A stretch of 37,313 nucleotides of DNA from a virus, in IMG/VR virus record IMGVR_UViG_3300032313_001074, positions 1 through 37,313 of that record. One strand, given 5' to 3'. Shown here in pieces: positions 18,573 through 35,588 of the stretch. Below the pieces are notes generated by a model. The model ran no database searches. It was not told the DNA's origin and saw only the letters and a program-made list of their open reading frames with translations. The position numbers and the translations under genes were made by a program. How positions within the stretch are numbered: position 1 is the first letter of the stretch; each line of letters opens with the position of its first letter.

Positions 18573-18761
18573 ATGACAAAGATACCTCTCAACATGGATG
18601 CTCGTTCACTCGTAAAGGAAATCAATCGCAGCAAGCGCAGGACTATGACAAAGCGCACTATGACAAAGAACACTATGACAAACAATGCTATGACATACAT
18701 CGCAGAGGCCCTTGCCGTGGTGCTCATCCTCATGCTTGGCGTTGCGATTCTTTCTCTGTAA
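18573..18761 (+). CDS. Small protein with Met-Thr repeats and a C-terminal membrane segment
   Basis: 62 residues. The N-terminal part (MDARSLVKEINRSKRRT) resembles that of the 19892 protein (IDTRPLARAIERSVRKT). Then come short repeats MTKRTMTKNTMTNNAMT, encoded by near-identical 15-nt units (CTATGACAAA), then a hydrophobic C-terminus (IAEALAVVLILMLGVAILSL), a single membrane span. The stop TAA lies inside the first arm of repeat element 1. Each ATG in the repeats could be an extra start that makes a shorter membrane peptide. Confidence 0.6.
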   Translation: MTKIPLNMDARSLVKEINRSKRRTMTKRTMTKNTMTNNAMTYIAEALAVVLILMLGVAILSL

Positions 18762-18834
18762 GTTGCTGATAATCAACGACTTACGACGGCGCGCCCCCCG
18801 ATAAGCTGTAAGTGTCTGATTGCCAAGGCTTTAC
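18758..18834. repeat. 77-bp dyad-core-dyad element, copy 1
   Basis: Arms 18758-18784 and 18808-18834; core 18785-18807 with GGCGCGCC. The first arm begins inside the stop codon region of the 18573 gene. Copy 2 follows 93 bp downstream. Confidence 0.9.
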
Positions 18835-18842
18835 ATCACATA

Positions 18843-18916
18843 GATAAAACTACGTTCGTCGCTCGGCAGAATTTAAGGAATGCGATAAAACTACGTTCGT
18901 CGCTCGGAAGAATTTA
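18843..18916. repeat. Two-copy direct repeat, period 41 bp
   Basis: 18843-18875 and 18884-18916 differ at one base over 33 bp; each carries ACGTTCGTCGCTCGG. It lies between element copies 1 and 2, in a stretch with no gene. Confidence 0.85.
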
Positions 18917-18927
18917 GCGTTAATGTC

Positions 18928-19004
18928 GTAACCTGTTACGTGTCAACGACTTACGCGTATGCAGGGGGCGCGCGAACGTAAGTCCTTGATAATCAAGCAC
19001 TTAC
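18928..19004. repeat. 77-bp dyad-core-dyad element, copy 2 (core inverted)
   Basis: Arms 18928-18954 and 18978-19004; core 18955-18977 reads GGGGGCGCGC, the opposite orientation to most copies. The next promoter begins 85 bp downstream. Confidence 0.85.
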
Positions 19005-19089
19005 GAATAGGCGCGAATACTACCACAACGCGCACAATATGTCAAGCAAAAAAGATAAAAAAAATTTCACACAATCGTAAAAAAATCCC

Positions 19090-19117
19090 TTGCTTTTTGC
19101 GCGTCCTGTGGTATTCT
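19090..19117 (+). promoter_or_regulatory. Early promoter, leaderless geometry
   Basis: A-tract, TTGCTT, 16-bp spacer ending CCTGTGG, TATTCT, 6 nt, ATG at 19124. Confidence 0.75.
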
Positions 19118-19123
19118 ATATAC

Positions 19124-19396
19124 ATGAACAAAGAAATAAACACCATCGAAGAAGCCAAAAACCTGTCCGTCATGGACTTCATGGAACGCACTCCTTTGGA
19201 GCGCAAACTAATCGACGAACTCAAGCGCGTCGAATCCCAAGTCGAACTCTTGCAAGAGTGGCTCGAAAACTCGCACAGAACGTGCGGCCTGTTGCGTGAT
19301 GCGCGTGATAGCTATCGTCGTCAACTCGGCATCTCGTCCGATTGGGACACGATGGAATCAGTCCGTGACAAATATGACGCCAGACATGGCGGCTAA
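19124..19396 (+). CDS. Small helical protein of unknown function
   Basis: 90 residues from the ATG at 19124, set by the promoter 6 nt upstream; a longer in-frame reading from 18959 would run through element copy 2 and the promoter. Mostly helical with a coiled-coil stretch (RKLIDELKRVESQVELLQEWLE). No family recognised. Confidence 0.7.
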   Translation: MNKEINTIEEAKNLSVMDFMERTPLERKLIDELKRVESQVELLQEWLENSHRTCGLLRDARDSYRRQLGISSDWDTMESVRDKYDARHGG

Positions 19397-19439
19397 AAAA
19401 CTTCTTGCCAAAACTCTCAACTCCTAATATTCTAAAAAT

Positions 19440-19655
19440 ATGAACAACACCAACGACGACTTCAACACGCAACCGCAATCCGACGAATACGCCAGCGAGC
19501 ACGAGGAAGTGCGCGGCACGTTTGCGGCTGAACCAGCCGCAGAGCAGGAACCCGAGCCGCAACCCTACGATGGGTGCGAGGGCCAATGGGCTGGCGATGG
19601 GTCGGGATTCGACGACCTCGCTGACTGGGGACAGCAGGAGGGCAACGACTGGTAA
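19440..19655 (+). CDS. Very acidic, probably disordered small protein
   Basis: 71 residues, rich in Asp, Glu, Gln, Pro and Gly, with almost no basic residues (EPAAEQEPEPQPYDG, GFDDLADWGQQEGNDW). The N-terminal DDFNTQPQSDEYASE nearly matches DDFNTQIQSDEFASE in the 23591 protein, so the two share a module. The extreme acidity resembles DNA-mimic or inhibitor proteins, but this is composition only. Confidence 0.6.
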   Translation: MNNTNDDFNTQPQSDEYASEHEEVRGTFAAEPAAEQEPEPQPYDGCEGQWAGDGSGFDDLADWGQQEGNDW

Positions 19656-19659
19656 CATT

Positions 19660-19890
19660 ATGACACAAAACGAAAACATCATGAAATCGTTGCACGCGCT
19701 TGCCAAGCAAGAGCAAACTTTGCAGGCTCAAGAGGCTGAAATGACAGAGCTAAAAAATCTTTTGTCTCGCGCCCTGTATACTATCACAGCACACGAATAC
19801 AAGCTGAACATCCTTTGCGAAACCAACATTGTTCTTTCGCGTGAAGTGCAAGCAATGCGCGATCAGCAATTTTCTTTCGGAGTCAACTAA
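19660..19890 (+). CDS. Small coiled-coil protein
   Basis: 76 residues from the ATG at 19660, 4 nt after the previous stop. One long heptad-rich helix (LHALAKQEQTLQAQEAEMTELKNLLSRALYT, in two parts) suggests an oligomeric coiled coil. Function unknown. Confidence 0.6.
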   Translation: MTQNENIMKSLHALAKQEQTLQAQEAEMTELKNLLSRALYTITAHEYKLNILCETNIVLSREVQAMRDQQFSFGVN

Positions 19891-19891
19891 C

Positions 19892-20044
19892 ATGAGCAAA
19901 ATAATTATGACAATCGACACACGTCCGCTTGCTCGCGCAATCGAGCGCAGCGTTCGCAAGACCTCTTGCCGTCCTTCCTTCGCCATGCGTGTCAAGAAAA
20001 AATTCGCGCGCAAGGCAAAGTTTTTTAGCGGTTGGTCTGAGTAG
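19892..20044 (+). CDS. Small basic protein related to the 18573 protein
   Basis: 50 residues from the ATG at 19892, 1 nt after the preceding stop. Strongly basic tail (RVKKKFARKAKFF), so it may bind nucleic acid. IDTRPLARAIERSVRKT matches MDARSLVKEINRSKRRT of the 18573 gene. The stop abuts element copy 3. Confidence 0.55.
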   Translation: MSKIIMTIDTRPLARAIERSVRKTSCRPSFAMRVKKKFARKAKFFSGWSE

Positions 20045-20120
20045 TAAAGCGTTGAATATCAACGACTTACGACGGCGCGCCCCGCCGCTCGGCGTAAGTG
20101 CTTGTGAATCAACGACTTAG
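20044..20120. repeat. 77-bp dyad-core-dyad element, copy 3
   Basis: Arms 20044-20070 and 20094-20120; core 20071-20093. The last base of the second arm is G instead of C. Next promoter 67 bp downstream. Confidence 0.9.
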
Positions 20121-20187
20121 GTCATCTGCTACGCAGATACCATGCCAACTTTGCCAAAGGCGCGAAAATAAAAATAAAAAAAATCCC

Positions 20188-20215
20188 TTGCGTTTTTGCA
20201 GTCCTGTGGTATAGT
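20188..20215 (+). promoter_or_regulatory. Early promoter, leaderless geometry
   Basis: A-tract, TTGCGT, 16-bp spacer ending CCTGTGG, TATAGT, 6 nt, ATG at 20222. Confidence 0.75.
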
Positions 20216-20221
20216 GTAAAC

Positions 20222-20377
20222 ATGATCAAGACGAACAACACCGAATACGTCAACACGCTCAACGCTTTCCGCGCTGGTGAAATCACCGAGCAGGAATGGC
20301 GGGAATTCTGCTTTGAGGTTCTCAAGGAGACTCTCGAAGTCAACAAGGACGTTCTCGTCCGTCTCAAGAATTGCTAA
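20222..20377 (+). CDS. Small helical protein of unknown function
   Basis: 51 residues (begins MIKTNNTEYVNTLNAF). Two helices with AGEITEQEWREFCFEVLKE; no family recognised. Start set by the promoter; the next promoter begins 8 nt after its stop. Confidence 0.6.
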   Translation: MIKTNNTEYVNTLNAFRAGEITEQEWREFCFEVLKETLEVNKDVLVRLKNC

Positions 20378-20385
20378 AAAAATTC

Positions 20386-20413
20386 TTGACTTTCACCACA
20401 ACTCTGATAAATT
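20386..20413 (+). promoter_or_regulatory. Early promoter, leaderless geometry
   Basis: TTGACT, 16 bp, TAAATT, 6 nt, ATG at 20420. Nearly the same sequence as the promoter at 17503. Confidence 0.75.
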
Positions 20414-20419
20414 AAAAGT

Positions 20420-20599
20420 ATGAAAAATAAAGCACCACAAAAAAGCCAAATCTGGAAAGTCGGAACGCGCTGCTTCCGCATCGTGCGCATCGAAGGCGGT
20501 CAAGCCGTTGTGCGCCATCACGAAGAATTCGGAAAGTTTTTTCTGAATGACTTGCGCCCTGCAAGTGCCGAAGAAATTCGCGCATACTTCAAAAAATAG
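20420..20599 (+). CDS. Small basic protein of unknown function
   Basis: 59 residues, beta-rich start (SQIWKVGTRCFRIVRIEGGQAVV) and a short C-terminal helix. Could be a small SH3-like barrel; no family recognised. Confidence 0.6.
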   Translation: MKNKAPQKSQIWKVGTRCFRIVRIEGGQAVVRHHEEFGKFFLNDLRPASAEEIRAYFKK

Positions 20600-20635
20600 T
20601 TTGACCCCAACCACAAAAACAAACAGAATAACAAC

Positions 20636-20851
20636 ATGACCAAAAAACAATTCACCGCCATCGCTCACATCTTGGGCAAACGTCTCGCTGAAAAACAACA
20701 CGCTCCCATCGGGGAATACGAAGCTGTCGAAGTCCTCGCGTTGGACTTTGCGAAATACTTTGCCGAACAAAATCCTCGTTTCGATGAGGATCGCTTTCTG
20801 GAAGCGGTTTACGTTTCAACCCCCAACATTCCTGTTGGATCATATAAATAA
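20636..20851 (+). CDS. Small helical protein of unknown function
   Basis: 71 residues (begins MTKKQFTAIAHILGKRLAEK). Helical, pattern like a small all-alpha phage protein. TTGACC lies 32 nt upstream, but the -10 is poor, so it may be read with the previous gene. Confidence 0.6.
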   Translation: MTKKQFTAIAHILGKRLAEKQHAPIGEYEAVEVLALDFAKYFAEQNPRFDEDRFLEAVYVSTPNIPVGSYK

Positions 20852-20854
20852 ATT

Positions 20855-20944
20855 ATGTCAATCTGGGAACCTCTCTTTTTCCTTTGCATCATGCCTGCCG
20901 CTTGCGGGTTCTTAATCCTCTGGGCTGATTCCAGAAAAAAATAA
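20855..20944 (+). CDS. 29-residue single-span membrane peptide
   Basis: Begins MSIWEPLFFLCIMPAACGF and ends ADSRKK: one hydrophobic span of about 20 residues with a basic C-terminus. It lies 3 nt after the previous stop and 4 nt before the next start, a tight fit that supports it as a gene. Confidence 0.5.
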   Translation: MSIWEPLFFLCIMPAACGFLILWADSRKK

Positions 20945-20948
20945 TCTC

Positions 20949-21218
20949 ATGAAAAAATACATATACACCATCGTGGTTGCTCTTGCGAGTAGCCTTGTCA
21001 CCCTCATCCTTGCAAGCATTGCTGTTTGCGTGTTCATCGTAATGCCCTTTAATAAAGAGGCTGTAGATCGTGGCTTTGCAAGCTGGGTCGTGACTAACAC
21101 CGCAACAGGCTCAACCAAGTTTGCTTGGAAAGACCCTCTCGTAGCTGCGAAAGACGCTTACGCTATGGAAGACGAAATGCTTAACCAAATCGAAGAACCC
21201 CTTCCTGCCCTTCAATAA
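20949..21218 (+). CDS. Small membrane-anchored protein
   Basis: 89 residues. An N-terminal membrane segment (residues 5-33, IYTIVVALASSLVTLILASIAV) is followed by a soluble acidic domain, so it is probably a signal-anchored inner-membrane protein facing the periplasm. Function unknown. It follows another membrane peptide by 4 nt. Confidence 0.6.
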   Translation: MKKYIYTIVVALASSLVTLILASIAVCVFIVMPFNKEAVDRGFASWVVTNTATGSTKFAWKDPLVAAKDAYAMEDEMLNQIEEPLPALQ

Positions 21219-21219
21219 T

Positions 21220-21426
21220 ATGATCACACCAAACATCCAAAAAGCCCTTGAATCAAACGGCGTCCGCTTCTTTGCAAAAGACTTCCTCATGGAAGGACTG
21301 CGGAAAGACTGCGTTGACGCTGTTCATGATGCCGAACTTGTTTACAAGTTGCTGAAAGAACGCATGGAAAAAATGCTTGCAATGGAACCCACGGAATCCG
21401 AACAGCAATACCCTCAACACTCATGA
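21220..21426 (+). CDS. Small helical protein of unknown function
   Basis: 68 residues (begins MITPNIQKALESNG). Helix-rich; no family recognised. It overlaps the next gene by 4 nt (ATGA), so translational coupling is likely. Confidence 0.6.
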   Translation: MITPNIQKALESNGVRFFAKDFLMEGLRKDCVDAVHDAELVYKLLKERMEKMLAMEPTESEQQYPQHS

Positions 21427-21614
21427 ACAAGAAACAAATCAAAGCCGTGCGCGATTACTCGCATGATGTCATAGTAAAAATCAAAGCCGTGTTTGACATA
21501 AAGAAAAAAGAGCCATCGCTTCTTTGTCATAGTCTCGCGCACCTCAACGGCGCGACATGGCTTGAAAGAATCTCGTCAAATGGAATCTTGAACGAATACA
21601 TCGTAAGACGCTGA
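21423..21614 (+). CDS. Small protein of unknown function
   Basis: 63 residues, basic N-terminal helix (MNKKQIKAVRDYSHDVIVKIKAVF). Its TGA stop lies inside the first arm of element copy 4, so the element is directly fused to the gene end. Confidence 0.6.
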   Translation: MNKKQIKAVRDYSHDVIVKIKAVFDIKKKEPSLLCHSLAHLNGATWLERISSNGILNEYIVRR

Positions 21615-21679
21615 TAATCAAGCACTTACGGCGGCGCGCCCCGCCGCTCGGCGTAAGTCGTTGAAACTCAACACGTTAC
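21603..21679. repeat. 77-bp dyad-core-dyad element, copy 4
   Basis: Arms 21603-21629 and 21653-21679; core 21630-21652. Contains the stop codon of the 21423 gene. Next promoter 107 bp downstream. Confidence 0.9.
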
Positions 21680-21725
21680 GCAAAACAGGGAGCAGAAACC
21701 GTGCCAACAATGAGTGTCATAAAAA

Positions 21726-21743
21726 TTCAAACGCCTGTTTGAA
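21726..21743. other. 7-bp perfect inverted repeat before an early promoter
   Basis: TTCAAAC-GCCT-GTTTGAA. A diverged copy is at 17200-17215, also upstream of an early promoter, so it might be an operator. Confidence 0.4.
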
Positions 21744-21786
21744 AAAACGTCAACAAAAATACTTTCAGCTAATCGAAAAAAAACCC

Positions 21787-21814
21787 TTGTGTTTTTGGCA
21801 ACCTGTGGTATTCT
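21787..21814 (+). promoter_or_regulatory. Early promoter, leaderless geometry
   Basis: A-tract, TTGTGT, 16-bp spacer ending CCTGTGG, TATTCT, 6 nt, ATG at 21821. The block CGTCAACAAAAATACTTTC lies about 35 bp upstream. Confidence 0.75.
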
Positions 21815-21820
21815 TTAATC

Positions 21821-22060
21821 ATGAAAGTTACCAAAGTCGAACTACTCGACGCACTACTACAAGCTCGCACCGCTCTTGCAAAAGACATCAGCGACTTCAA
21901 CAAAAGCCGCAACGGATTCTTTGCCAAAGAATTTCGCGCTTCACTCCGTGAAAAAATCGCGGCCCATCGTTTGCTTTCCCACATCGACACGATTGACGCT
22001 GAACTCTATTCGTTCGATGCTCGCACCCGTGCAAGGGTCAAAAAAGCCCTTGCCAAGTAA
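21821..22060 (+). CDS. Small helical protein of unknown function
   Basis: 79 residues, nearly all helix, basic (VELLDALLQARTALAKDI and ending RTRARVKKALAK). First gene of a unit with the GP88-like protein; no family recognised. Confidence 0.65.
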   Translation: MKVTKVELLDALLQARTALAKDISDFNKSRNGFFAKEFRASLREKIAAHRLLSHIDTIDAELYSFDARTRARVKKALAK

Positions 22061-22085
22061 GGCAAATTCTGCAAAAATTCACACC

Positions 22086-22769
22086 ATGACACTACTAAGC
22101 ACCAACAACACCAAAATCAAAAAAGGCGAAAAGCTCGGCTGGCGCACTTACGGCCTTTCACTCTCACCCGCTGGAAAAAGTGGCAAGCAATTCTGTCCGC
22201 ATCGCTCGACTGGTTGCGAGTTTGCTTGTCTCGACGAAAGCGGAATGGGAATTTTCGCCAACGTGCAAGCCGCTCGCCTTGCCAAGTCGCGTTACTTCAT
22301 CGACAGCCGCAACGAGTTTTTGTCTCAGATGAATAAAGAATTGCACAACGCAGAAAAGTGGGGGCAAAAAAACTCAAAACCTGTTGCGGTTCGCCCGAAC
22401 GTCTTGTCTGATCTTCCGTGGCATAAACTCATCGACATGACGCGCTTTCCGTCAATTCAGTTTTACGATTACACGCCGAACCTTGACCGCATGATGCAAT
22501 TCATCAATGGCGAGTTGCCGAAAAATTATCATCTGACCTTCTCGCGCAAGGAGGACAATCAGCATCGCGTTCACGCTGTCATAGCCGCTGGCGGTAACGT
22601 GGCCGCTGTCTTTAATGAGCTACCCGAAACCTACCTCGGAAAGCCTGTCATAAATGGCGACGAAAGCGACTTGCGTTTTCTTGACGCGCAGGGCGTGATT
22701 GTCGGACTCGTAGCAAAAGGCAAGGCGAAGAAAGACAAGTCTGGATTCGTGGTGCAAGTTGGCGTATAA
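22086..22769 (+). CDS. GP88-like phage protein
   Basis: 227 residues from the ATG at 22086; the longer in-frame reading from 21876 lies inside the preceding gene. The N-terminal pattern TKIKKGEKLGWRTYGLSLSPAG followed by FCPHRSTGCEFACLD (Cys37, Cys44, Cys48) is typical of the phage GP88 family, whose role is not known. Later FYDYTPNLDRM and HLTFSRKEDNQHRVH also look conserved. The Cys cluster might bind metal. The TAA stop overlaps an ATG, but the next likely gene starts 9 nt further on. Confidence 0.75.
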   Translation: MTLLSTNNTKIKKGEKLGWRTYGLSLSPAGKSGKQFCPHRSTGCEFACLDESGMGIFANVQAARLAKSRYFIDSRNEFLSQMNKELHNAEKWGQKNSKPVAVRPNVLSDLPWHKLIDMTRFPSIQFYDYTPNLDRMMQFINGELPKNYHLTFSRKEDNQHRVHAVIAAGGNVAAVFNELPETYLGKPVINGDESDLRFLDAQGVIVGLVAKGKAKKDKSGFVVQVGV

Positions 22770-22778
22770 TGAACACCT

Positions 22779-22850
22779 ATGGAAATAATCTGTCTGCTTG
22801 TCGTCGTGGCGGCTTGTGCTTGGGCAATTCATCAAAATCAAAAACTATGA
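22779..22850 (+). CDS. 23-residue membrane peptide
   Basis: MEIICLLVVVAACAWAIHQ plus four residues: one hydrophobic span with a short polar tail. It sits between GP88-like and the 22847 gene, overlapping the latter by 4 nt (ATGA), which supports translation in this frame. Confidence 0.45.
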   Translation: MEIICLLVVVAACAWAIHQNQKL

Positions 22851-23005
22851 CACTAAATCTAATCGCACGAAAAAATCTTTTCCGCTTGTCGCAATTTTTC
22901 AAACGCCGCGCTGACGCTGCTTCACGCCGTGGCAAAGATGAACGCGCAAAAATTCTTCTGACTGCATGGGAAAAAATGCTTGACATCCGCGACAAACTGA
23001 GATGA
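22847..23005 (+). CDS. Small basic helical protein
   Basis: 52 residues from the ATG at 22847. A longer in-frame start at 22769 gives 78 residues, but the extra part overlaps the 23-residue membrane peptide in another frame. Basic (FFKRRADAASRRGKDERAK), a candidate nucleic-acid binder. It ends 1 nt before element copy 5. Confidence 0.55.
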   Translation: MTLNLIARKNLFRLSQFFKRRADAASRRGKDERAKILLTAWEKMLDIRDKLR

Positions 23006-23006
23006 C

Positions 23007-23083
23007 GTAAAGCGTTGAAAATCAACGAGTTACGGCGGCGCGCCCCCCGCGTCAGCTTAAGTCCTTAGAACAGAACAACTTAC
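23007..23083. repeat. 77-bp dyad-core-dyad element, copy 5
   Basis: Arms 23007-23033 and 23057-23083 (second arm starts TTAAG); core 23034-23056. Next promoter 84 bp downstream. The flank GAATAGG...GATACTACCA matches that after copy 2. Confidence 0.85.
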
Positions 23084-23167
23084 GAATAGGTGTGGATACT
23101 ACCATTCCCATACGAACTTGTCAAGAATAAAAATGCAAAAAATAAAAATAATTTTCTAAAAAATATC

Positions 23168-23195
23168 TTGTGTTTTTGTATGTCTGTGCTATTCT
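23168..23195 (+). promoter_or_regulatory. Early promoter, leaderless geometry
   Basis: TTGTGT, 16-bp spacer, TATTCT, 6 nt, ATG at 23202. Confidence 0.7.
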
Positions 23196-23201
23196 GTATG
23201 T

Positions 23202-23399
23202 ATGACAGAGAAACAAACCACCAAGTGCCCCAAGTGCGGGGGAAAAGCCACATCAACCTACGAGCCACCCTATGAGGAATACGCTGGAGCCAGCGTGCAG
23301 GGCGGCTACTACTACGTCGAGTGCGCGTGCGGTCACGAGGGCACCCAGAAGGCCAGCCTAGAGGACTACAACTGGCAAGAGAACACAAGGGGTTGGTAA
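23202..23399 (+). CDS. Small zinc-ribbon protein
   Basis: 65 residues. CPKCG (Cys9, Cys12) and CACG (Cys41, Cys43) form a zinc ribbon, with aromatic residues between (GGYYYVE). Ribbons of this size are common in phage early proteins and may bind nucleic acid or protein. The TAA stop lies in the first arm of element copy 6, so this is a one-gene unit: promoter, gene, element. Confidence 0.7.
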   Translation: MTEKQTTKCPKCGGKATSTYEPPYEEYAGASVQGGYYYVECACGHEGTQKASLEDYNWQENTRGW

Positions 23400-23472
23400 C
23401 CCCTTAATTCTCAATCAGTTACGCTGGCGCGCCCCGCCGCGCGGCGTAAGTCCTTGATATTCAACACGTTAC
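23396..23472. repeat. 77-bp dyad-core-dyad element, copy 6
   Basis: Arms 23396-23422 and 23446-23472; core 23423-23445. Contains the stop codon of the 23202 gene. Next promoter 84 bp downstream. Confidence 0.9.
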
Positions 23473-23556
23473 GCAAAACCTGGAGCAGGAAGCGTGCCAA
23501 CTCTGAATCTTTTTTTTCGTCAACAAAAATACTTTCTAAAAATGCAAAAAAAATCG

Positions 23557-23584
23557 TTGCACTCTCACGCCCTGCTGCTATTCT
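23557..23584 (+). promoter_or_regulatory. Early promoter, leaderless geometry
   Basis: A-tract, TTGCAC, 16 bp, TATTCT, 6 nt, ATG at 23591. The block CGTCAACAAAAATACTTTC lies just upstream, as before 21787. Confidence 0.7.
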
Positions 23585-23590
23585 TTACCC

Positions 23591-23725
23591 ATGCAAGCGA
23601 ACTCCATCATCACTGACGACTTCAACACGCAAATCCAAAGCGACGAGTTTGCCTCGGAATTTGAGGCTTGGCTCGACGAGCAGGAACTGAAATACTGGCA
23701 GGACATCGACGCTCGCGGAAATTAA
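23591..23725 (+). CDS. Small acidic protein sharing a module with the 19440 protein
   Basis: 44 residues, acidic (ITDDFNTQIQSDEFASEFEA). The shared DDFNTQxQSDE(F/Y)ASE segment shows common origin with the 19440 gene, but the C-termini differ. Confidence 0.55.
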   Translation: MQANSIITDDFNTQIQSDEFASEFEAWLDEQELKYWQDIDARGN

Positions 23726-23729
23726 TTTT

Positions 23730-24188
23730 ATGACAAACACAACAGAACAAGCAAACATCGTAATCAGCGCATACGGCAACGGCATTGCCGTTGGCCTTCA
23801 CGGAACACGCGAACAAATCGAAAAAAACTTCAACCGCTTCTTCAACTGGGGCGCAACTGGAATCGGAGAACTCGGTGACTACCTGCACGACCTCTCAGAT
23901 AACTTCTCCTACTTCCTCTCCACGGAAACGGATATGCTTCGCGCTATGACATACGAGACTATGACAAAGTGGCAGGACTCTCCGGTAAGCGAGCAATACA
24001 AAGCGCGCCCACGTTTCTACAAGAAACCAAACGGAACAAAGTTTCGCACCGATGCCGTAAATGCTGCGCGTGACGAATACGAATCTTTCCCGCGTGAAAG
24101 TTTCATGCTCCAGATGAAATCACCCTCACACATCTATCAGCAACTCGACGGCGGTGCGCCGTCTTGGAGGAGCGAAACGGAGGACTAA
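23730..24188 (+). CDS. Protein of unknown function
   Basis: 152 residues, soluble, mixed alpha/beta (VISAYGNGIAVGLHGTREQIEK then FNWGATGIGELGDYLHDL). No family recognised. Begins 4 nt after the previous stop, in the same unit. Confidence 0.7.
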   Translation: MTNTTEQANIVISAYGNGIAVGLHGTREQIEKNFNRFFNWGATGIGELGDYLHDLSDNFSYFLSTETDMLRAMTYETMTKWQDSPVSEQYKARPRFYKKPNGTKFRTDAVNAARDEYESFPRESFMLQMKSPSHIYQQLDGGAPSWRSETED

Positions 24189-24191
24189 TCT

Positions 24192-24452
24192 ATGTCACAT
24201 AAAGTAGCAGAAATAAAAGGGGAGTTATTAGACTTCATACACAATCACGCAGCCTGGAATGAAATATGGGAGGCATTGATTTCTAGATATAGCGACATTG
24301 GAAAAATCCATACTCGCAAGAACTTTGCAGAGAAGAATTCTGTAGAGATAATCGGAATTACAGAAAGGGATCTTTCAACGCTTTCGGCTATAGAAAAATT
24401 CTTTATCGAAAAAATAACCCCTTCGGGATTTCTTAAAATAACACAATACTAA
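24192..24452 (+). CDS. Small protein of unknown function, AT-rich
   Basis: 86 residues (begins MSHKVAEIKGELLDFIH), helical. GGAGG lies 8 nt before the ATG, a normal Shine-Dalgarno site for an internal gene. Base composition is clearly more AT-rich than the genes before it, so it may have been acquired separately. Confidence 0.65.
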   Translation: MSHKVAEIKGELLDFIHNHAAWNEIWEALISRYSDIGKIHTRKNFAEKNSVEIIGITERDLSTLSAIEKFFIEKITPSGFLKITQY

Positions 24453-24455
24453 TCT

Positions 24456-24740
24456 ATGAAAAAAATACTAGTCACGGTCAAACAAGTAATGGAAGTGCCA
24501 GACTCTTTTGAGCTTGGTCATCATCTAAAAAATGCTCCAGATTGGAATGTCATAAAAGTTGGAAGTAAAATTGCCGTTCCAGAAATTACGTGGAGCAAAT
24601 GGAAAGATGATGTAGACGGGCCGTCAATTATAACTCAATCTAAAGACTCGGCGCTGACAAAAAGACTTGACAGATTCGTTTCGCTTGACTGGTCTATGAC
24701 AGAGTTTCCGATGAACTATGAAGTGCCAACAGAATGTTAA
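24456..24740 (+). CDS. Small protein of unknown function, AT-rich
   Basis: 94 residues (begins MKKILVTVKQVMEVP, ends NYEVPTEC). Beta-rich start, no family recognised. Follows the previous gene by 3 nt; element copy 7 starts 1 nt after its stop. Confidence 0.65.
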   Translation: MKKILVTVKQVMEVPDSFELGHHLKNAPDWNVIKVGSKIAVPEITWSKWKDDVDGPSIITQSKDSALTKRLDRFVSLDWSMTEFPMNYEVPTEC

Positions 24741-24741
24741 C

Positions 24742-24818
24742 ATAAACGCTTAATAATCAAGCACTTACAGCGGCGCGCCCGGCGAATCGTCGTAAGTCAT
24801 TGAACCACAGGACTTTGT
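24742..24818. repeat. 77-bp dyad-core-dyad element, copy 7
   Basis: Arms 24742-24768 and 24792-24818 (second arm decayed at its right end); core 24769-24791. It sits between converging genes, and the minus-strand gene stops inside it (TGA at 24797-24799). No promoter follows. Confidence 0.8.
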
Positions 24819-25048
24819 GGATTATACTTTAGGGTGCTAATCATTGAAGCCAATTTGACAATTGATTCTGCAAATGCTTTATTCTTCCCCCTCATCTTAC
24901 TGATAAGCTGTTCCCTGTTCTCAAGATCGCGCTCTCTACCTATTTTGTCACATACGAGATGCAATTCTCCACTATCCCTAAAGAACCTGTCCAAGTCCTG
25001 TAATGCTTTATCATTATTGATTATTAATTGTAAGCTATTTCTATCCAT
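24797..25048 (-). CDS. Small charged helical protein, minus strand
   Basis: 83 residues, highly charged (ALQDLDRFFRDSGELHLVCDK, IGRERDLENREQLISKMRGK). The only minus-strand gene with the early promoter type: TTGACA, 17 bp, TAGGGT, 6 nt, ATG. Function unknown. Confidence 0.65.
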   Translation of the reverse strand: MDRNSLQLIINNDKALQDLDRFFRDSGELHLVCDKIGRERDLENREQLISKMRGKNKAFAESIVKLASMISTLKYNPQSPVVQ

Positions 25049-27069: not shown

Positions 27070-27140
27070 GCACCTTTAGCCAAGTGGTAAGGCGGGAGTC
27101 TGCAACACTCTTATCGCTGGTTCGAATCCAGCAAGGTGCT
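27070..27140 (+). tRNA. tRNA-Cys (GCA)
   Basis: Acceptor GCACCTT/AAGGTGC; D stem GCC/GGC; anticodon stem GGAGT/ACTCT with loop CTGCAAC (GCA); T arm GCTGG-TTCGAAT-CCAGC. No CCA. Its last ten bases overlap the first arm of element copy 8. Confidence 0.9.
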
Positions 27141-27207
27141 CACTATCAAGCACTTACGCCGCCGGGCCGGGCGCGCGGACGTAAGTCGTTGAATACTAAC
27201 AACTTAA
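27131..27207. repeat. 77-bp dyad-core-dyad element, copy 8 (fused to tRNA-Cys)
   Basis: Arms 27131-27157 and 27181-27207; core 27158-27180 with GGGCCGGGCGCGCG. The outer half of the first arm is the tRNA-Cys 3' end (GCAAGGTGCT), which still fits the arm pattern. Next promoter 42 bp downstream. Confidence 0.8.
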
Positions 27208-27249: not shown

Positions 27250-27278
27250 TTGACTAAATTTTCAAATAGGGTTATTCT
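27250..27278 (+). promoter_or_regulatory. Early promoter, leaderless geometry
   Basis: TTGACT, 17 bp, TATTCT, 6 nt, ATG at 27285. Confidence 0.75.
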
Positions 27279-28306: not shown

Positions 28307-28477
28307 ATGAAACTAATCGAAGGTGCTATCTATAACTACAAGGGAGAATCTATTCGGTTCCGCAAGGAAATCGGAGTTGTCTCGCTCTTGTCTCGTCGTA
28401 AGAAGTCTGGTTTCTTGGGTCGCACAGACCTCTTGAAGAAGGCTAACAAGACGCAAGTCGCCAAGTTCCTCAAATAA
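28307..28477 (+). CDS. Small basic protein with strong Shine-Dalgarno
   Basis: 56 residues, basic (FRKEIGVVSLLSRRKKSG, then LLKKANKTQVAKFLK). AAGGAGGG lies 7 nt before the ATG, the strongest Shine-Dalgarno site in the window, as expected for an internal gene. May bind nucleic acid; family unknown. Element copy 9 begins 2 nt after its stop. Confidence 0.65.
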   Translation: MKLIEGAIYNYKGESIRFRKEIGVVSLLSRRKKSGFLGRTDLLKKANKTQVAKFLK

Positions 28478-28479: not shown

Positions 28480-28556
28480 GTAAAGCTCTCGTAATCATGG
28501 GGTTACGAGGGCGCGCCCCGCCGCGCCGCGTAAGTCGTTGAATATCAGCGGCTTAC
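28480..28556. repeat. 77-bp dyad-core-dyad element, copy 9
   Basis: Arms 28480-28506 and 28530-28556; core 28507-28529. Next promoter 68 bp downstream. CCGTGCCAACTTTG follows, as after copies 3, 4 and 6 in part. Confidence 0.9.
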
Positions 28557-28624: not shown

Positions 28625-28653
28625 TTGCTCGCTCATACAAAACAACGTATTCT
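28625..28653 (+). promoter_or_regulatory. Early promoter, near-leaderless
   Basis: TTGCTC, 17 bp, TATTCT, 8 nt, ATG at 28662. An A-tract precedes the -35. Confidence 0.65.
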
Positions 28654-29513: not shown

Positions 29514-29590
29514 ATAAGCTGTTGAGTATCAAGCACTTACGGCGGCGCGCCCCGCCGCCCAGCGTAAGTCATTGATTATCAGGCGCTTAC
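29514..29590. repeat. 77-bp dyad-core-dyad element, copy 10
   Basis: Arms 29514-29540 (starts ATAAG) and 29564-29590; core 29541-29563. It lies 22 bp after a complete intrinsic terminator, and the next promoter starts 19 bp downstream. Confidence 0.9.
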
Positions 29591-29609: not shown

Positions 29610-29638
29610 TTGACCATGCACACAAAACCCTCTATTGT
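29610..29638 (+). promoter_or_regulatory. Early promoter, short leader
   Basis: TTGACC, 17 bp, TATTGT, 14 nt to the ATG at 29653; predicted leader of about 7 nt. Confidence 0.55.
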
Positions 29639-29652
29639 AGAAATACACCACC

Positions 29653-30289: not shown

Positions 30290-30316
30290 CTCAATGGTTA
30301 GAGCAGTCCCATGATT
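30280..30316 (+). pseudogene. Truncated tRNA, 5' half only
   Basis: GGGGTGGTAGCTCAATGG then TTAGAGC: an acceptor 5' strand, D arm GCTC/GAGC with the usual AATGGTTA loop, and the start of an anticodon stem. No T arm or acceptor 3' strand follows; an A-rich stretch and a promoter come next. Probably a tRNA broken by recombination. Confidence 0.65.
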
Positions 30317-30334
30317 TTTAATGAAAAAAACTTC

Positions 30335-30363
30335 TTGACCTTTCCAACAAAAACATTTAACCT
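30335..30363 (+). promoter_or_regulatory. Possible promoter, weak -10
   Basis: TTGACC, 17 bp, TAACCT; TATAAA lies 3 bp after. Start at 30422 is about 58 nt downstream, so this unit should have a normal leader. The two copies of CAAATTAGCAC in that leader are a short direct repeat. Confidence 0.4.
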
Positions 30364-30421
30364 ATAAACACTATTAAAAAATAACAACTAACCCACCACA
30401 AATTAGCACCAAATTAGCACT

Positions 30422-30865
30422 ATGAAGACAGAAAACGAATGCAGATGCGACAAACGTATCAACCAACTGGAAGAGGCGTTACGCAACATCGCCAACGGAG
30501 ACATGCGGACATCGAGAGCGAAGGCAAAGATGGCTTTGGAGGGCACCTTCCCGCCTGTGGACGAAAAGGCAAACAAGGAACTTGTCGGGGCAACCACTCC
30601 TGCGCCAACACCTTGGTCAGCTAAGAGTGAAACCTACTGGCGTGATCAATACCTGTTCATGTACGAAAAGTATCACAAGCTCATGCGCGAGAAATCCGAT
30701 CAGGCAGAGCGCATCCGCGAACTTTACGCCATGCTAGGTCACATCGTCGATTGGAGTCCAGAACTGCCGTTTTACATTAAAGACGAATACAAAGTTCTGT
30801 TCAGAAACGCATTATCCGCCGCCAGAGAGTTGTTGAGCAAGTGCAAGGCGAAGGAAGACAAATGA
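30422..30865 (+). CDS. Cys-containing protein with a shared C-terminal module (1 of 3)
   Basis: 147 residues. CRCDK near the start, a helical first half (INQLEEALRNIANGD), a Pro-rich linker (TTPAPTPWS), and a C-terminal segment (GHIVDWSPELPFYIKDEYKVL, then AARELLSK). That segment follows the same pattern as the ends of the next two genes. Function unknown. Confidence 0.65.
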   Translation: MKTENECRCDKRINQLEEALRNIANGDMRTSRAKAKMALEGTFPPVDEKANKELVGATTPAPTPWSAKSETYWRDQYLFMYEKYHKLMREKSDQAERIRELYAMLGHIVDWSPELPFYIKDEYKVLFRNALSAARELLSKCKAKEDK

Positions 30866-30893
30866 AAATAACAAAAATCATCAGGAGATCAAA

Positions 30894-31316
30894 ATGAAAA
30901 ACTGCCCAAAATGCGACTCACAGGCAATGACCCCAGAATCATATCAAAACGAATCCAAAAGGGTTCATTTCCGATGCGATAGCTACGGATACAACGACAA
31001 GGAGAATTTTGATTTATTGTATCGCAGCGAAATGTGCTGTGAGCGTGAGGAGAATAATACTTTACGTCGAAAGGTCAAGGAACTGGAAGCCAAGCTCGAC
31101 AACCTCCAAGCCTCCACGATCCACAGTTGCGGGGACTACTGCAGTCGCCCCATGTGCGTGTTGCGGAGGGAGAGGGATGCTTACAAGGAGGCGTTGCAGA
31201 TGTGTGTTTTTTGGGCTGAATCCATCAGCCGTAGAGTCACCGAGGACAGAGACAGCATAAATTGGACGGGACTGCAGATAGCTCGCAAAGCTATGTTCAG
31301 AGGCGGAAGATCGTGA
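30894..31316 (+). CDS. Cys-rich protein with a shared C-terminal module (2 of 3)
   Basis: 140 residues. CPKC at 4-7, further Cys and His (CDSYGYND, CCERE, HSCGDYCSRPMC) point to zinc binding. A coiled-coil stretch (NTLRRKVKELEAKLDNLQAS) lies in the middle. The C-terminus (KEALQMCVFWAESI...LQIARKAMF) has the pattern of its neighbours. AGGAG lies 8 nt before the ATG. Confidence 0.65.
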   Translation: MKNCPKCDSQAMTPESYQNESKRVHFRCDSYGYNDKENFDLLYRSEMCCEREENNTLRRKVKELEAKLDNLQASTIHSCGDYCSRPMCVLRRERDAYKEALQMCVFWAESISRRVTEDRDSINWTGLQIARKAMFRGGRS

Positions 31317-31328
31317 GGAGGAGGCGAA

Positions 31329-31622
31329 ATGAGCGACTACAATCATAAATGCCTCGTTCACGAATGCAAAAACCGAATGTGGGGAGGTGAGTTTGTCGGA
31401 TCATTGTGCAAACCATGTTATCTCATGATCGCAACGGGTAATGATTTGCCGTCCACTAATTTTATTTCAAAACTTTTCCGTGAACGCATCCAACTTCGAG
31501 AAGCTCTTGAATGTCTTGTTGATTGGAACCCGAAGTGCGAATACTGGGAACGCCCTGAAACCGTGGTGAGGTTTGAGGCGGATATGGAGAAGGCGCGTAA
31601 GATTTTGGAGGAGACGGAATGA
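31329..31622 (+). CDS. Cys-containing protein with a shared C-terminal module (3 of 3)
   Basis: 97 residues. Cys8, Cys13, Cys27 and Cys30 could form a zinc site around MWGGEFVGSLC. The end (REALECLVDWNPKCEYW, then FEADMEKARKILEE) matches the pattern of the two preceding genes. GAGGAGGAGG upstream is a strong Shine-Dalgarno site. Overlaps the next gene by 4 nt. Confidence 0.65.
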   Translation: MSDYNHKCLVHECKNRMWGGEFVGSLCKPCYLMIATGNDLPSTNFISKLFRERIQLREALECLVDWNPKCEYWERPETVVRFEADMEKARKILEETE

Positions 31623-31711
31623 GCGAATGGCTAACACTATTCGTGCAAGGAGTATTTTATGGCGTTATTGGTGCAATCAGTTATTTAGTTGTTGGGAGGC
31701 TTTTGAAATGA
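31619..31711 (+). CDS. 30-residue membrane peptide
   Basis: MSEWLTLFVQGVFYGVIGA plus eleven more residues; one membrane span with a basic end (GRLLK). Coupled to the previous gene by a 4-nt overlap, and followed 7 nt later by tRNA-Met. Confidence 0.5.
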   Translation: MSEWLTLFVQGVFYGVIGAISYLVVGRLLK

Positions 31712-31718
31712 AATACAT

Positions 31719-31792
31719 GGGCTTATAGTTTAAGGGTTAAAACACACCTCTCATAAAGGTCGAGACTGTGGGTTCAAATCCCACTTGGCCCA
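31719..31792 (+). tRNA. tRNA with CAT anticodon (Met, or Ile if modified)
   Basis: Acceptor GGGCTTA/TTGGCCC (one mismatch); D stem GTTT/AAAC; anticodon loop CTCATAA; T arm GTGGG-TTCAAAT-CCCAC. No CCA. CAT could also be an Ile tRNA with modified C34; the acceptor does not look like initiator tRNA. Confidence 0.85.
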
Positions 31793-31868
31793 CATCTATT
31801 TGAATATCAAGCACTTACAAAGGTGCGCCCCGCCGCGCGCCGTAACTATTTGGCAATCAAGCACTTAC
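31792..31868. repeat. 77-bp dyad-core-dyad element, copy 11
   Basis: Arms 31792-31818 (outer half degenerate) and 31842-31868; core 31819-31841. The tRNA-Met discriminator base is its first base. Next promoter only 8 bp downstream. Confidence 0.8.
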
Positions 31869-31876
31869 AAAACAAC

Positions 31877-31905
31877 TTGACACCAATCGCAAAATGCGAT
31901 ACCTT
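31877..31905 (+). promoter_or_regulatory. Early promoter, near-leaderless
   Basis: TTGACA, 17 bp, TACCTT, 9 nt to the ATG at 31915. Confidence 0.6.
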
Positions 31906-31914
31906 TAGAGGACG

Positions 31915-32076
31915 ATGAAACCTTACCCTATTGATCTATGGACGGATATTGTCAAAGCCGTAGTTACCGGTTGCGCCAATACCCACTATACGCCCGAACA
32001 CATTGTTAAAAACGCTATCAAAATTGCCAATGGAATTGTTGCAGAACACGAAAGAATTAACGACGAATCCGTTTGA
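31915..32076 (+). CDS. Small helical protein of unknown function
   Basis: 53 residues (begins MKPYPIDLWTDIVKAVVTG), helical. The TGA stop lies inside the -35 TTGACA of the rIIB promoter. Function unknown. Confidence 0.6.
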   Translation: MKPYPIDLWTDIVKAVVTGCANTHYTPEHIVKNAIKIANGIVAEHERINDESV

Positions 32077-32101
32077 CAACCAACCCAAAACCCTGTAATA
32101 T
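32073..32101 (+). promoter_or_regulatory. Early promoter of rIIB, leaderless geometry
   Basis: TTGACA, 17 bp, TAATAT, then 5 nt to the first ATG (32107) or 8 nt to the second (32110). Confidence 0.7.
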
Positions 32102-32106
32102 AATAA

Positions 32107-32964
32107 ATGATGAAAACGCTAAACGCACTAATCAAAACCGACGAATCCATCACCGCAGTAATTGATGGAGTTCCCAAGACGATGAGTTGTAACCATCCGT
32201 CATTCACCGAGGCAATCACTTGTCTCGCTACTGGAGACTACGAAACCCTCGACTCCCTGTTCGATGTTTCTGCGTCTATCACCCGCAAATTCAACGCCGA
32301 TAATGTCGGTGGTATCGAGATTGCCGATGGCGTGATCTACTACCAAGGTGAATCCTTGCACAACTATGTCGTGGATCGTATCTTCGACTTCATGGATGAA
32401 GGCTTGCCGTTTCAGCCTCTTGCAAAGTTCCTTGGCAAACTCATGGAGAATCCTTCTCGTCGTGCAGTTTCCGAGCTTTACACGTTCCTTGAACACAAGC
32501 ATCTTCCGATCTGTGAAGATGGTGACTTCCTTGCCTACAAGAGTGTCACGAATGATTACATGGATCATCATAGTGGCAAGTTCTTCAACGGAGTTGGCGA
32601 GGTCTTGGATATGCCGCGCAACGCTGTCTGCGACGATGCAGATGTTGGTTGCTCCTACGGATTCCATGCTGGTAGCCATGAGTATGCCAGTAACTTCGGT
32701 GGTGGCGACTCGCGCCTTGTGATCGTCAAGATCAATCCTGCCGATGTTGTGTCGGTTCCGAAAGATTGCAACTGTCAGAAGTTGCGGACTTCACGCTACG
32801 AGGTTGTCAAGGACTTTGAACAGGTCTATCGCAAGCCTCTCAACACGGAGTTCACTTCCTACGATGAGGACTATGACGATGAAGATTACGATGGGTGTGC
32901 GGATGAAAACTGCGCCTATCACAACGTGAGGGATGCGAAAGGCCGCTTCATGCGGAAGCGGTAG
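32107..32964 (+). CDS. rIIB: rIIB-like protein
   Basis: 285 residues (T4 RIIB: 312). The conserved C-terminal core is clear: FLGKLMENPSRRAVSELYTFLEH, then LPICEDGDFLAYKSVTNDYMDHHSG (in parts), then CSYGFHAGSHEYA and DVVSVPKDCNCQKLRTSRYEV. In T4, rIIA and rIIB are membrane-associated and block superinfection exclusion; they are needed in hosts with certain prophages. Two ATG codons in a row at the start; the first is 5 nt after the -10. Separate promoter from rIIA, and the order rIIB-rIIA is the reverse of T4. Confidence 0.88.
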   Translation: MMKTLNALIKTDESITAVIDGVPKTMSCNHPSFTEAITCLATGDYETLDSLFDVSASITRKFNADNVGGIEIADGVIYYQGESLHNYVVDRIFDFMDEGLPFQPLAKFLGKLMENPSRRAVSELYTFLEHKHLPICEDGDFLAYKSVTNDYMDHHSGKFFNGVGEVLDMPRNAVCDDADVGCSYGFHAGSHEYASNFGGGDSRLVIVKINPADVVSVPKDCNCQKLRTSRYEVVKDFEQVYRKPLNTEFTSYDEDYDDEDYDGCADENCAYHNVRDAKGRFMRKR

Positions 32965-32982
32965 TCGGTGGTGCGACAAAGC

Positions 32983-33026
32983 GGGGGTGGGGCTTGTGGT
33001 GGGCCTCACCCCCAAATTTTTGTTTT
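32983..33026 (+). terminator. Intrinsic terminator after rIIB
   Basis: GGGGGTG and CACCCCC pair around a 17-nt loop, followed by AAATTTTTGTTTT. Confidence 0.75.
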
Positions 33027-33039
33027 GATCTTGTTTGTT

Positions 33040-33116
33040 GTAAGTTGCTCATTAACAATGACTTATGCCAGCGCGCCCCGCCGCGCCGCGTAAGTCGTTG
33101 ATTTACAAGCTCTTAC
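33040..33116. repeat. 77-bp dyad-core-dyad element, copy 12
   Basis: Arms 33040-33066 and 33090-33116; core 33067-33089. It lies between the rIIB terminator and the rIIA promoter, which begins 19 bp later. Confidence 0.9.
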
Positions 33117-33135
33117 ACTTTTTTATAAAAATCGC

Positions 33136-33164
33136 TTGCCATGCCATGCAAATAGCTGTATTCT
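33136..33164 (+). promoter_or_regulatory. Early promoter of rIIA, short leader
   Basis: TTGCCA, 17 bp, TATTCT, 22 nt to the ATG at 33187; leader of about 15 nt without a clear Shine-Dalgarno site. Confidence 0.6.
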
Positions 33165-33186
33165 GATTACTCACACAACTACTACT

Positions 33187-35430
33187 ATGATCATCACACA
33201 AAACAAAGTTAATGTCGTCACGCAAGGTATTCAAGGTGCTGTCTCTTTCGGCATCAAGCAGGAAGGTCTTGCCCACATCTTCAACGTCCTCCGCAACCAG
33301 TTGTATTCCGACAAGATTCTTGCAGTCTTGCGCGAGTATTCTTGCAACGCTGTTGACGCACACACGGAAGCAGGACACAATCGCCCGATTGAGGTTACGC
33401 TTCCTTCTCGCCTGTCTCTGGAACTCAAGATTCGTGACTACGGCATTGGCCTTTCCGAAACTGACATCCAAGAGATTTATGCTTTCTATGGTGAATCAAC
33501 GAAGCGTAAGAGCAACTCCCTAATCGGGCAGTTGGGTCTTGGTAGTAAGTCCGCTTTTGCCTATGGTGATAACTTTGTCATCAATAGCTTTTACAACGGC
33601 ATCAAGACTACTTACAACGCTTACATTGATCCCTCGCAGATCGGTCAGATTGCTACTCTCGCATCCTCTCCTTCTAACGAAGCGAATGGTGTTGAGATTG
33701 TGATTCCGGTAAAACCCGCCGACTGCGAAACTTTCGTCAATACTGCTCGCGGTTTGTTCCATCACTTCAAGGTCAAGCCGATTGTTCGTGGTGCTGCTGA
33801 CTTCAAATACGAGACTCGCACTCCCATTTATAGTGGTAACGATTGGCGCATTTTCCAAGCAGATCGTAACTCGTATGGTCGTAAAGCAGTTGCTGTCATG
33901 GGTAACATCGCTTATCGTGTAAGCTCGGATGCTCTCAAACTGGATGAGAATAATGCCGACGAAGCGACTATCGAACGTCTCTTGTCTAACTGTGACATCG
34001 AACTCGACGTTGCCATTGGCGACTGCGATATTGCTGCCTCGCGTGAAGGATTGCAATACACGGATCGCACGATTGCGAATCTCAAGAAACGTATCCTCGT
34101 TATTCGTGACTATCTCGTTGCCGACATTACCAAGCAACTCAAAGGCGCACAAAGTCTCTGGTCATTCAAGAAGATGCTCGGTGAGATGCACAACTTCAAT
34201 AGTCCCTACTATGTTGTGTGTAACGCTATGCGCGGCAAAAATGGTTACGATTACAACGGCAAGACCATCAAAGATTTTACGATCAACTTTGGAAACAGCA
34301 AGGGATTCAAACTCTATACTGGACGCAAAGGTTATCTGAATGGTTCGTATATCGTCAAGGGTAGCAAGAATGAAGATTTGACTCATCTGATCAGTCTCGA
34401 CGCAGAAATGTCCATCGTTGAGAATACCAAAGGCATCAAGACGCAGATCGTCAACCACATCTTCCCCATGCTTCAGAATGATGGCAAGGTGATCGTGTTT
34501 GAGCCGCTTAATGCTGCTGACCGCAAGAGACAGATGGATGCTCTTGGTCTTGTAGATGCTGACATTGTTAACATGGCAACCTTGCCCAAGGTCTTGCTGC
34601 CTCGCGCAACTCGTAAGGCCAATAACAATGGACTCATGGCGAATCGCAGCAAACACACCAGCAAAGTGTTTTCGATTGATCCTGCTGCCAAAGGTCTGTC
34701 GTCATACCACAAAGTCAAAAGTGACTTTTGGTTGGAAGAAGATGTTGACCTGTCAACGCTCGACCCCAAGAAATACTGCTACATCGAGATTGAGCGATTC
34801 GTTGGTAAGATCGACGGACATGAAGTTAGTCCCAATAGTCTAATGTCTTGCTGTGCCAAGATTGAAACTCTTGCCAAACTTGCCAAGGCCAAAGGCATCG
34901 TTGCTCCTAACATCATCGGCATCAAGAATGGTTCGACGCTCGACAAGGCCAAGAAAACCAAAGTCATGGACTTCAAAACTTTCTTCACCAATGCGTTGAA
35001 GGAGATCGAAGCTCAAGCCAATGTCGGTGAGGTTCTCTACTCCGAAGAAATCTATCACCAGTTTGCCATGACGAATCAATGCTTGCGCGGTGAGGTTCGC
35101 AAACTGGTCAATGCAAACAATGCGCCAAACACGCATCGTGTCTTGGAAGAAGTTTTGAAGCTACAAGCACAATCTGATGACTTGTCGATCAAGTCTTGCA
35201 TCGAAAGCATCTGCGGACACATCGGTGTTCCTTCAAAGAATGTCCGTTCCAAACGTAGTGCCAAGCTCAACGCTATGGAAGTCAAGGCGACCAAACTTGC
35301 TCACTCCATGCGCCTTCTGCAAGCGATTGATGCCTACAATCTCCAGACCTATCGTGAGAATCACAAGCAACATCGTGAGGCTTGCGTGGATTATATCACA
35401 ACCCGCGACCATCTGCTTGCGGGAGTATAA
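33187..35430 (+). CDS. rIIA: rIIA-like GHKL ATPase
   Basis: 747 residues from the ATG at 33187 (T4 RIIA: 725). An earlier in-frame ATG at 33136 overlaps the -35 and is rejected. The N-terminus has the three GHKL ATP-binding motifs: REYSCNAVDAH (N box, 49-59), DYGIG (84-88) and GQLGLGSKSAF (114-124). In T4, RIIA and RIIB protect against host or prophage exclusion systems. The C-terminal 350 residues are less clear, with helical, Lys-rich parts. It is the largest early gene and has its own promoter and terminator. Confidence 0.9.
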   Translation: MIITQNKVNVVTQGIQGAVSFGIKQEGLAHIFNVLRNQLYSDKILAVLREYSCNAVDAHTEAGHNRPIEVTLPSRLSLELKIRDYGIGLSETDIQEIYAFYGESTKRKSNSLIGQLGLGSKSAFAYGDNFVINSFYNGIKTTYNAYIDPSQIGQIATLASSPSNEANGVEIVIPVKPADCETFVNTARGLFHHFKVKPIVRGAADFKYETRTPIYSGNDWRIFQADRNSYGRKAVAVMGNIAYRVSSDALKLDENNADEATIERLLSNCDIELDVAIGDCDIAASREGLQYTDRTIANLKKRILVIRDYLVADITKQLKGAQSLWSFKKMLGEMHNFNSPYYVVCNAMRGKNGYDYNGKTIKDFTINFGNSKGFKLYTGRKGYLNGSYIVKGSKNEDLTHLISLDAEMSIVENTKGIKTQIVNHIFPMLQNDGKVIVFEPLNAADRKRQMDALGLVDADIVNMATLPKVLLPRATRKANNNGLMANRSKHTSKVFSIDPAAKGLSSYHKVKSDFWLEEDVDLSTLDPKKYCYIEIERFVGKIDGHEVSPNSLMSCCAKIETLAKLAKAKGIVAPNIIGIKNGSTLDKAKKTKVMDFKTFFTNALKEIEAQANVGEVLYSEEIYHQFAMTNQCLRGEVRKLVNANNAPNTHRVLEEVLKLQAQSDDLSIKSCIESICGHIGVPSKNVRSKRSAKLNAMEVKATKLAHSMRLLQAIDAYNLQTYRENHKQHREACVDYITTRDHLLAGV

Positions 35431-35453
35431 TTGTTAGTGGTGTAGTGGTGGGT

Positions 35454-35490
35454 GCGGGGCGTGCCGTGTGGTGCGCCCCGCATTTTTTTT
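35454..35490 (+). terminator. Intrinsic terminator after rIIA
   Basis: GCGGGGCG and CGCCCCGC form a perfect 8-bp stem around 12 nt, followed by A and eight Ts. Confidence 0.93.
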
Positions 35491-35511
35491 GCATTAAAAT
35501 TGCGCTTTAGC

Positions 35512-35588
35512 AGAAGACGTTGAAGATCAGCAACTTACGCCAGCGCGCCGGGCGCGGCGGCGCAAGTCCTTCATAATCAACAACATAC
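35512..35588. repeat. 77-bp dyad-core-dyad element, copy 13
   Basis: Arms 35512-35538 and 35562-35588 (second arm starts GCAAG and ends CATAC); core 35539-35561. Next promoter 18 bp downstream, in front of tRNAs. Confidence 0.8.

Follow-up and report, generated by a model that had tools for sequence, protein, structure and literature searches.

A repeated double-dyad element at early transcription-unit boundaries in an uncultivated phage family

Why would a large phage place the same 77-bp double palindrome at one gene boundary after another, and is the element read as DNA or as RNA? The stretch of DNA analysed here in full (the window), a linear virus record of 37.3 kb (IMG/VR record IMGVR_UViG_3300032313_001074, positions 1 to 37,313), comes from a large phage and holds genes for a terminase, PhoH, a sigma-like factor and an ERCC4 nuclease as well as rIIA- and rIIB-like genes and tRNAs. 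An earlier sequence-only reading had listed thirteen copies of the element, each composed of a 27-bp dyad, a 23-bp core and a second 27-bp dyad. All thirteen were found at the listed positions, 77 bp long and in a single orientation (Table 1). Scanning with an arm model trained on other contigs only returned 13 arm pairs exactly 50 bp apart, compared with 0 at every threshold in 200 windows simulated by a first-order Markov model, and single arms also exceeded chance (38 matches versus 15 expected). Inspection of the cores reveals GGCGCGCC in 8/13 and CCCGCCG in 7/13, which makes the earlier description of both as usual a fair one. Seven copies (starting at 18758, 20044, 21603, 23007, 23396, 24742 and 28480) abut or overlap the upstream stop codon (≤12 bp). 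As the same reading had proposed, a T-run follows none of the 13 copies on the 3' side, and an intrinsic terminator precedes the three copies at 29514, 33040 and 35512.

Table 1. Element copies and sigma70-type promoters in the window.
Feature	Position	Strand	Context
Copy 1	18758..18834	+	First GTAAG includes stop codon of ORF 18573-18761
Copy 2	18928..19004	+	93 bp past copy 1
Promoter, copy 2	19090..19117	+	
Copy 3	20044..20120	+	Adjoins stop of ORF 19892-20044
Promoter, copy 3	20188..20215	+	
Copy 4	21603..21679	+	Overlaps stop of ORF 21423-21614
Promoter, copy 4	21786..21813	+	By analogy with orthologue in contig L010
Copy 5	23007..23083	+	Adjoins stop of ORF 22769-23005
Promoter, copy 5	23168..23195	+	Read from sequence
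Copy 6	23396..23472	+	Contains stop of ORF 23202-23399
Promoter, copy 6	23557..23584	+	
Copy 7	24742..24818	+	Between convergent genes 24456-24740 (+) and 24797-25048 (-)
Copy 8	27131..27207	+	Left arm shares 11 bp with 3' end of tRNA-Cys (27070-27141)
Promoter, copy 8	27250..27278	+	
Copy 9	28480..28556	+	Adjoins stop of ORF 28307-28477
Promoter, copy 9	28625..28653	+	
Copy 10	29514..29590	+	Preceded by intrinsic terminator
Promoter, copy 10	29610..29638	+	
Copy 11	31792..31868	+	Starts at end of tRNA-Met (31719-31793); degenerate left half-site
Promoter, copy 11	31877..31905	+	8 bp past copy
Copy 12	33040..33116	+	rIIB-like/rIIA-like intergenic region, 3' of intrinsic terminator
Promoter, copy 12	33136..33164	+	
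Copy 13	35512..35588	+	3' of rIIA-like gene and intrinsic terminator
Promoter, copy 13	35607..35634	+	Before tRNA-Glu

Exact patterns matched about 40 further IMG/VR contigs, and allowing a flexible gap added more, giving a full measured set of 387 elements at 73 loci; many one-off inverted repeats from the flexible-gap scan (e.g. L140, L191) were judged to be unrelated palindromes and left out. The arm sequences are common to phages with ~35% protein identity, and the nearest isolates have terminase identity of at most about 25%. The element defines an uncultivated phage family, for which its motif serves as a marker. Its consensus is absent from 50,697 phage records, and no such element was found in isolated phages or plasmids. 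A 24-base pattern, which matches only 31/179 known copies, gave 0 matches in ~85,000 species genomes; because of this coverage a few divergent copies could have gone unnoticed, but the search would probably have picked up any genome carrying a full cluster. Literature searches with the half-site string returned only a primer and unrelated text. An element with a 26-bp core, accompanied by the GTGCCAAC motif, is also present in a contig binned in a Rhodobacteraceae MAG (L279:4598-4624); this contig is probably of phage origin and hints weakly at the host. Three Fibrobacter MAGs (L277, L280, L282) contain single perfect or near-perfect arm palindromes without the core or second arm.

Each arm is built from two 12-bp half-sites, GTAAGTCNTTGA, mirrored about a 3-bp centre, so that the element runs H1, H2, core, H3, H4. 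The inner halves hold 18.5 and 17.2 bits of information and the outer halves 12.9 and 13.7 bits; substitutions per site are lowest in the inner half-sites (0.11-0.12), intermediate in the outer (0.18-0.21) and highest in the core (0.27). That is to say, the core sequence varies freely while the arms stay conserved. Core GC content is 0.64-0.98 per genome versus 0.30-0.39 for the genomes themselves, with rare AT-rich exceptions.

Core length is constant within each lineage, with main classes of 15, 21, 23 and 31 bp and a 24-bp class in contig L029; the 23-bp core is not universal. Arm spacing accordingly takes the values 42, 48, 50, 51 or 58 bp by lineage, and counts within single genomes are 14 spacings of 50 bp, 10 of 58, 10 of 48 and 12 of 42. 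The sequence-only reading's statement that the spacing never changes holds within the window genome and within each lineage and fails across the family. Since the spacing is fixed despite a median core identity of 0.57-0.87 per genome, core length itself is constrained. For the core-21 lineage, median core identity is 57%, yet 10/11 pairs keep the 48-bp spacing. Concerted copying is unlikely as the sole reason for this regularity, as the cores differ strongly while their length holds. The lineage spacings ignore helical turns, so that no simple face-of-helix rule applies. Tandem arrays also exist (e.g. spacings 58-38-58 and 50-60-60-50). In a close lineage with a terminase 84% identical to that of the window, the second arm is swapped for a shorter GTAAGACAATTGTCTTAC-like dyad. 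Half-elements in the G004 and G010 clusters (L297, L283-L284) combine a 27-bp arm and a core near CGCCGGGCCCCGCCGGGC with a different dyad, and this swap of the second arm provides a natural variant for asking which arm matters.

Placement was assessed over well-supported genes only, with gene context from a trained hexamer caller. Across eight sampled long genomes, arm pairs are confined to one early-gene cluster of about 8-17 kb each. Elements occupy 162/190 tandem gaps of at least 90 bp (about 85%), 13/15 convergent junctions (87%) and 5/8 divergent junctions, versus 3/248 short intra-operon gaps (about 1%). The element is retained at 202 orthologous junctions and missing in two directed comparisons, one of which involves a gene pair with a 3-bp gap. 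These results support the earlier proposal that the element sits at transcription-unit boundaries. The rule is unusually strict, with about 85% of boundaries and 1% of operon gaps occupied, and it holds family-wide at ~35% protein identity.

One explanation for this placement acts on RNA. As an element of 3' ends, its transcribed hairpins would end or process the upstream mRNA, whether as a factor-dependent terminator, an RNase III site or an exonuclease block. Consistent with such a role, the element adjoins tRNA 3' ends and stop codons (abutted in ~40% of tandem cases), another terminator lies ahead of 0/101 stop-abutting elements, convergent sites are well occupied and the predicted folds are stable. 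However, 222/226 copies have no U-run on the 3' side and so lack this mark of an intrinsic terminator, and real divergent junctions carry the element too. Of the copies lying 40-120 bp past a stop codon, about half follow an intrinsic terminator. Because some divergent sites carry the element and intrinsic terminators precede some copies, termination alone does not account for it, which upholds the earlier view that it is not simply a terminator.

Pairing tests bear on the RNA explanation more directly. No excess pairing over permutation was observed for H1:H2, H3:H4 or H1:H4, and the halves do not covary; the check for compensatory changes within arms that had been suggested for this element found none in any arm pairing. 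H2:H3 pairing shows a deficit in the permutation test, caused by position 8. Written in half-site coordinates, in which identical letters correspond to a base pair, position 8 combines C with G in 88 cases and shows C,C or G,G in 9 (Fisher p = 2e-17). No other long-range coupling within the arms is as strong. Although the pairing and coupling tests do not correct for relatedness, the rule recurs across several lineages, and single genomes contain it in both base states. Among orthologous copies, position 8 has undergone 15 joint and 6 single changes and is non-complementary in 95/98 sequences. The core-23 lineage avoids H2:H3 pairing at this position, and the core-31 lineage lacks the rule. 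Folding beats shuffles only in some lineages: core-23 sequences equal their shuffles, while those of the core-31 lineage fold far better (z -3.2). No Rfam covariance model matched 18700-24900 at E values up to 1. Without base-pair covariation between the arm halves, the element is unlikely to work as an RNA stem or cruciform, and the conserved cruciform or nested RNA hairpin offered by the sequence-only reading is not supported, H2:H3 being anti-complementary at position 8. The comparative evidence points to sequence-specific binding by a protein rather than to a conserved stem, and we regard the RNA 3'-end explanation as unlikely.

The element might also serve as an operator of the downstream early promoter, through which a phage repressor or activator would act on each early unit. 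Downstream regions score at least 8 for a sigma70-type promoter in 41% of cases, versus 4% of shuffled sequences and 8% of upstream regions, and the element together with the promoter region forms a repeat common to copies, whereas the upstream flanks are not common to them. Against this reading, the distance to the -10 element varies (about 37-125 bp), and convergent boundaries, which need no promoter, are occupied as often. Because these convergent junctions carry the element, it is not a promoter operator alone, and we consider the explanation distinctly improbable. The 3' side of the element often carries a sigma70-type promoter, preceded by a CGTGCCAACT motif and an A-rich tract. CGTGCCAACT is conserved ~20 bp past many copies (e.g. 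20121-20160) and is followed by the A-tract before the -35; the two may represent a second protein site or an UP element.

A site for recombination or for mobile cassettes (attC-like, REP/RAYT-like or PeSL-like), through which early gene modules would be shuffled, would match the four-half-site plan of integron attC, the mosaic early region of relatives and the shared element-promoter repeat, but is very improbable, as gene adjacency is broken little more often where elements lie (41%) than in the remaining long gaps (36%), essentially no empty sites exist, palindrome pairing is not preserved and a tyrosine or serine recombinase or Y1 transposase occurs in 0/11 records.

The best explanation is in our view the one that the sequence-only reading had also raised, a putative protein reading two dyads at a set distance, as suggested by arms that are conserved, spacing that is fixed by lineage and halves that do not covary. 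We tentatively infer, at slightly less than an even chance, that the element is a double operator for a dimeric protein and forms a boundary isolating early units. A dimeric DNA-binding protein would recognise the two 12-bp half-sites of each 27-bp dyad arm. Each arm would hold one dimer, and the two dimers would be connected over the GC-rich core, with the distance between them set by the protein of that lineage. Present at almost every boundary between small early transcription units, the complex would isolate neighbouring units by stopping read-through and/or supercoil spill, acting on tandem, convergent or (less often) divergent neighbours. At tandem boundaries the element would usually be built together with the sigma70-type promoter of the next unit. 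Three observations count against the double-operator model. The lineage spacings follow no simple face-of-helix rule; a pure termination block would have no need of the intrinsic terminators before about half of the copies at 40-120 bp past a stop codon; and simple dimer binding does not account for the position-8 rule, which the core-31 lineage lacks. A more specific and more doubtful form of the model is a phage-specific insulator, whereby one phage-family protein would bridge the two palindromes over a lineage-tuned gap, use position 8 as a polarity or anti-pairing code and wall off nearly every early unit.

Should the insulator reading be true, bacterial viruses would possess their own counterpart to chromatin insulators; we know of no described equivalent of a phage insulator system. 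The element would show how large phages stop many tiny early units interfering with one another, and it is directly testable because it combines strict placement, a measurable spacing rule and one coupled position pair.

The nearest known systems are the PeSLs of T4-type phages and bacterial BIMEs; the element resembles both in its placement and composite build, and fits the definition of neither. PeSLs (promoter-early stem-loops) are reportedly found in T4-type phages (Arbiol 2010; Comeau 2014, as listed in PMC4503421), and the comparison here follows paper titles and general knowledge only. Element and PeSL alike combine a palindrome with an early sigma70 promoter and lie between early units in a plastic region of a large phage. 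Unlike a PeSL, the element has no U-run terminator and has two dyads at a lineage-fixed distance; it also stands at convergent and some divergent junctions and is not a preferred breakpoint. Of the defining PeSL features it has the adjacent early sigma70 promoter, without the intrinsic-terminator stem-loop or the module shuffling.

In integron attC sites a variable core lies between outer and inner half-sites; these sites stand at gene 3' ends in one orientation and act as folded single-strand sites. The element shares the half-sites, variable core, 3'-end position and single orientation, and differs in having no conserved folding, covarying arms or element-specific cassette shuffling. Tyrosine recombinase (PF00589) was detected in 0/11 phage records and in 14/14 controls. 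BIME/REP sequences are extragenic, repeated pairs of palindromic units with a spacer, reported to bind host proteins, and their palindromes preserve complementary changes (PMC2817692). The element is likewise an extragenic, repeated pair of palindromic units with a spacer; its sequence is unrelated, its arms lack complementary changes and its inner halves are anti-paired. The RAYT (Y1) transposase PF01797 was found in 0/11 phage records, some of them partial. As regards the binding of gyrase or IHF, a further BIME/REP feature, the phage records themselves gave no match to type II topoisomerase PF00521.

Nearly the same 27-bp arm, GTAAGTCGTTGAAAATCAACGACTTAC, lies beside nic in the oriT of IncW-like plasmids (R7K, pIE321 and Bordetella plasmid BPP5P1), where it is single, without a core or second arm. 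This likeness may be due to chance or convergence, or possibly to a shared host factor. Near-identical arms occur next to a nic hairpin at L055:1502-1528, L056:1506-1532 and L281:1415-1441, and a Falsochrobactrum oriT palindrome contains a compensating change (CAT/ATG).

Several conserved genes were considered as sources of the putative partner protein. The GP88 (PF17338) gene, at 22017-22769 in the window, lies inside the element cluster in 8/9 lineages; its AF2 model gave no significant fold match, DNA-binding or otherwise, and it was rejected. A conserved 366-aa protein beside the terminase (10613-11713, minus strand) contains two tandem three-helix units and was likewise set aside, with no significant fold match and a faint similarity to the HK97 small terminase; its role is probably in packaging. 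Conserved FmdB-like and SSB-like proteins, typed by reading their sequences, showed no link to the element. Beside the large terminase, at 9663-10601 (minus strand), is an ERCC4/XPF-type nuclease with a zinc finger that is conserved in all lineages, the assignment having been typed on the G002 orthologue. A short reading frame at 1356-1592 (minus strand) carries the internal repeated peptide RQTWRELIVLA and is likely noise from a repetitive region.
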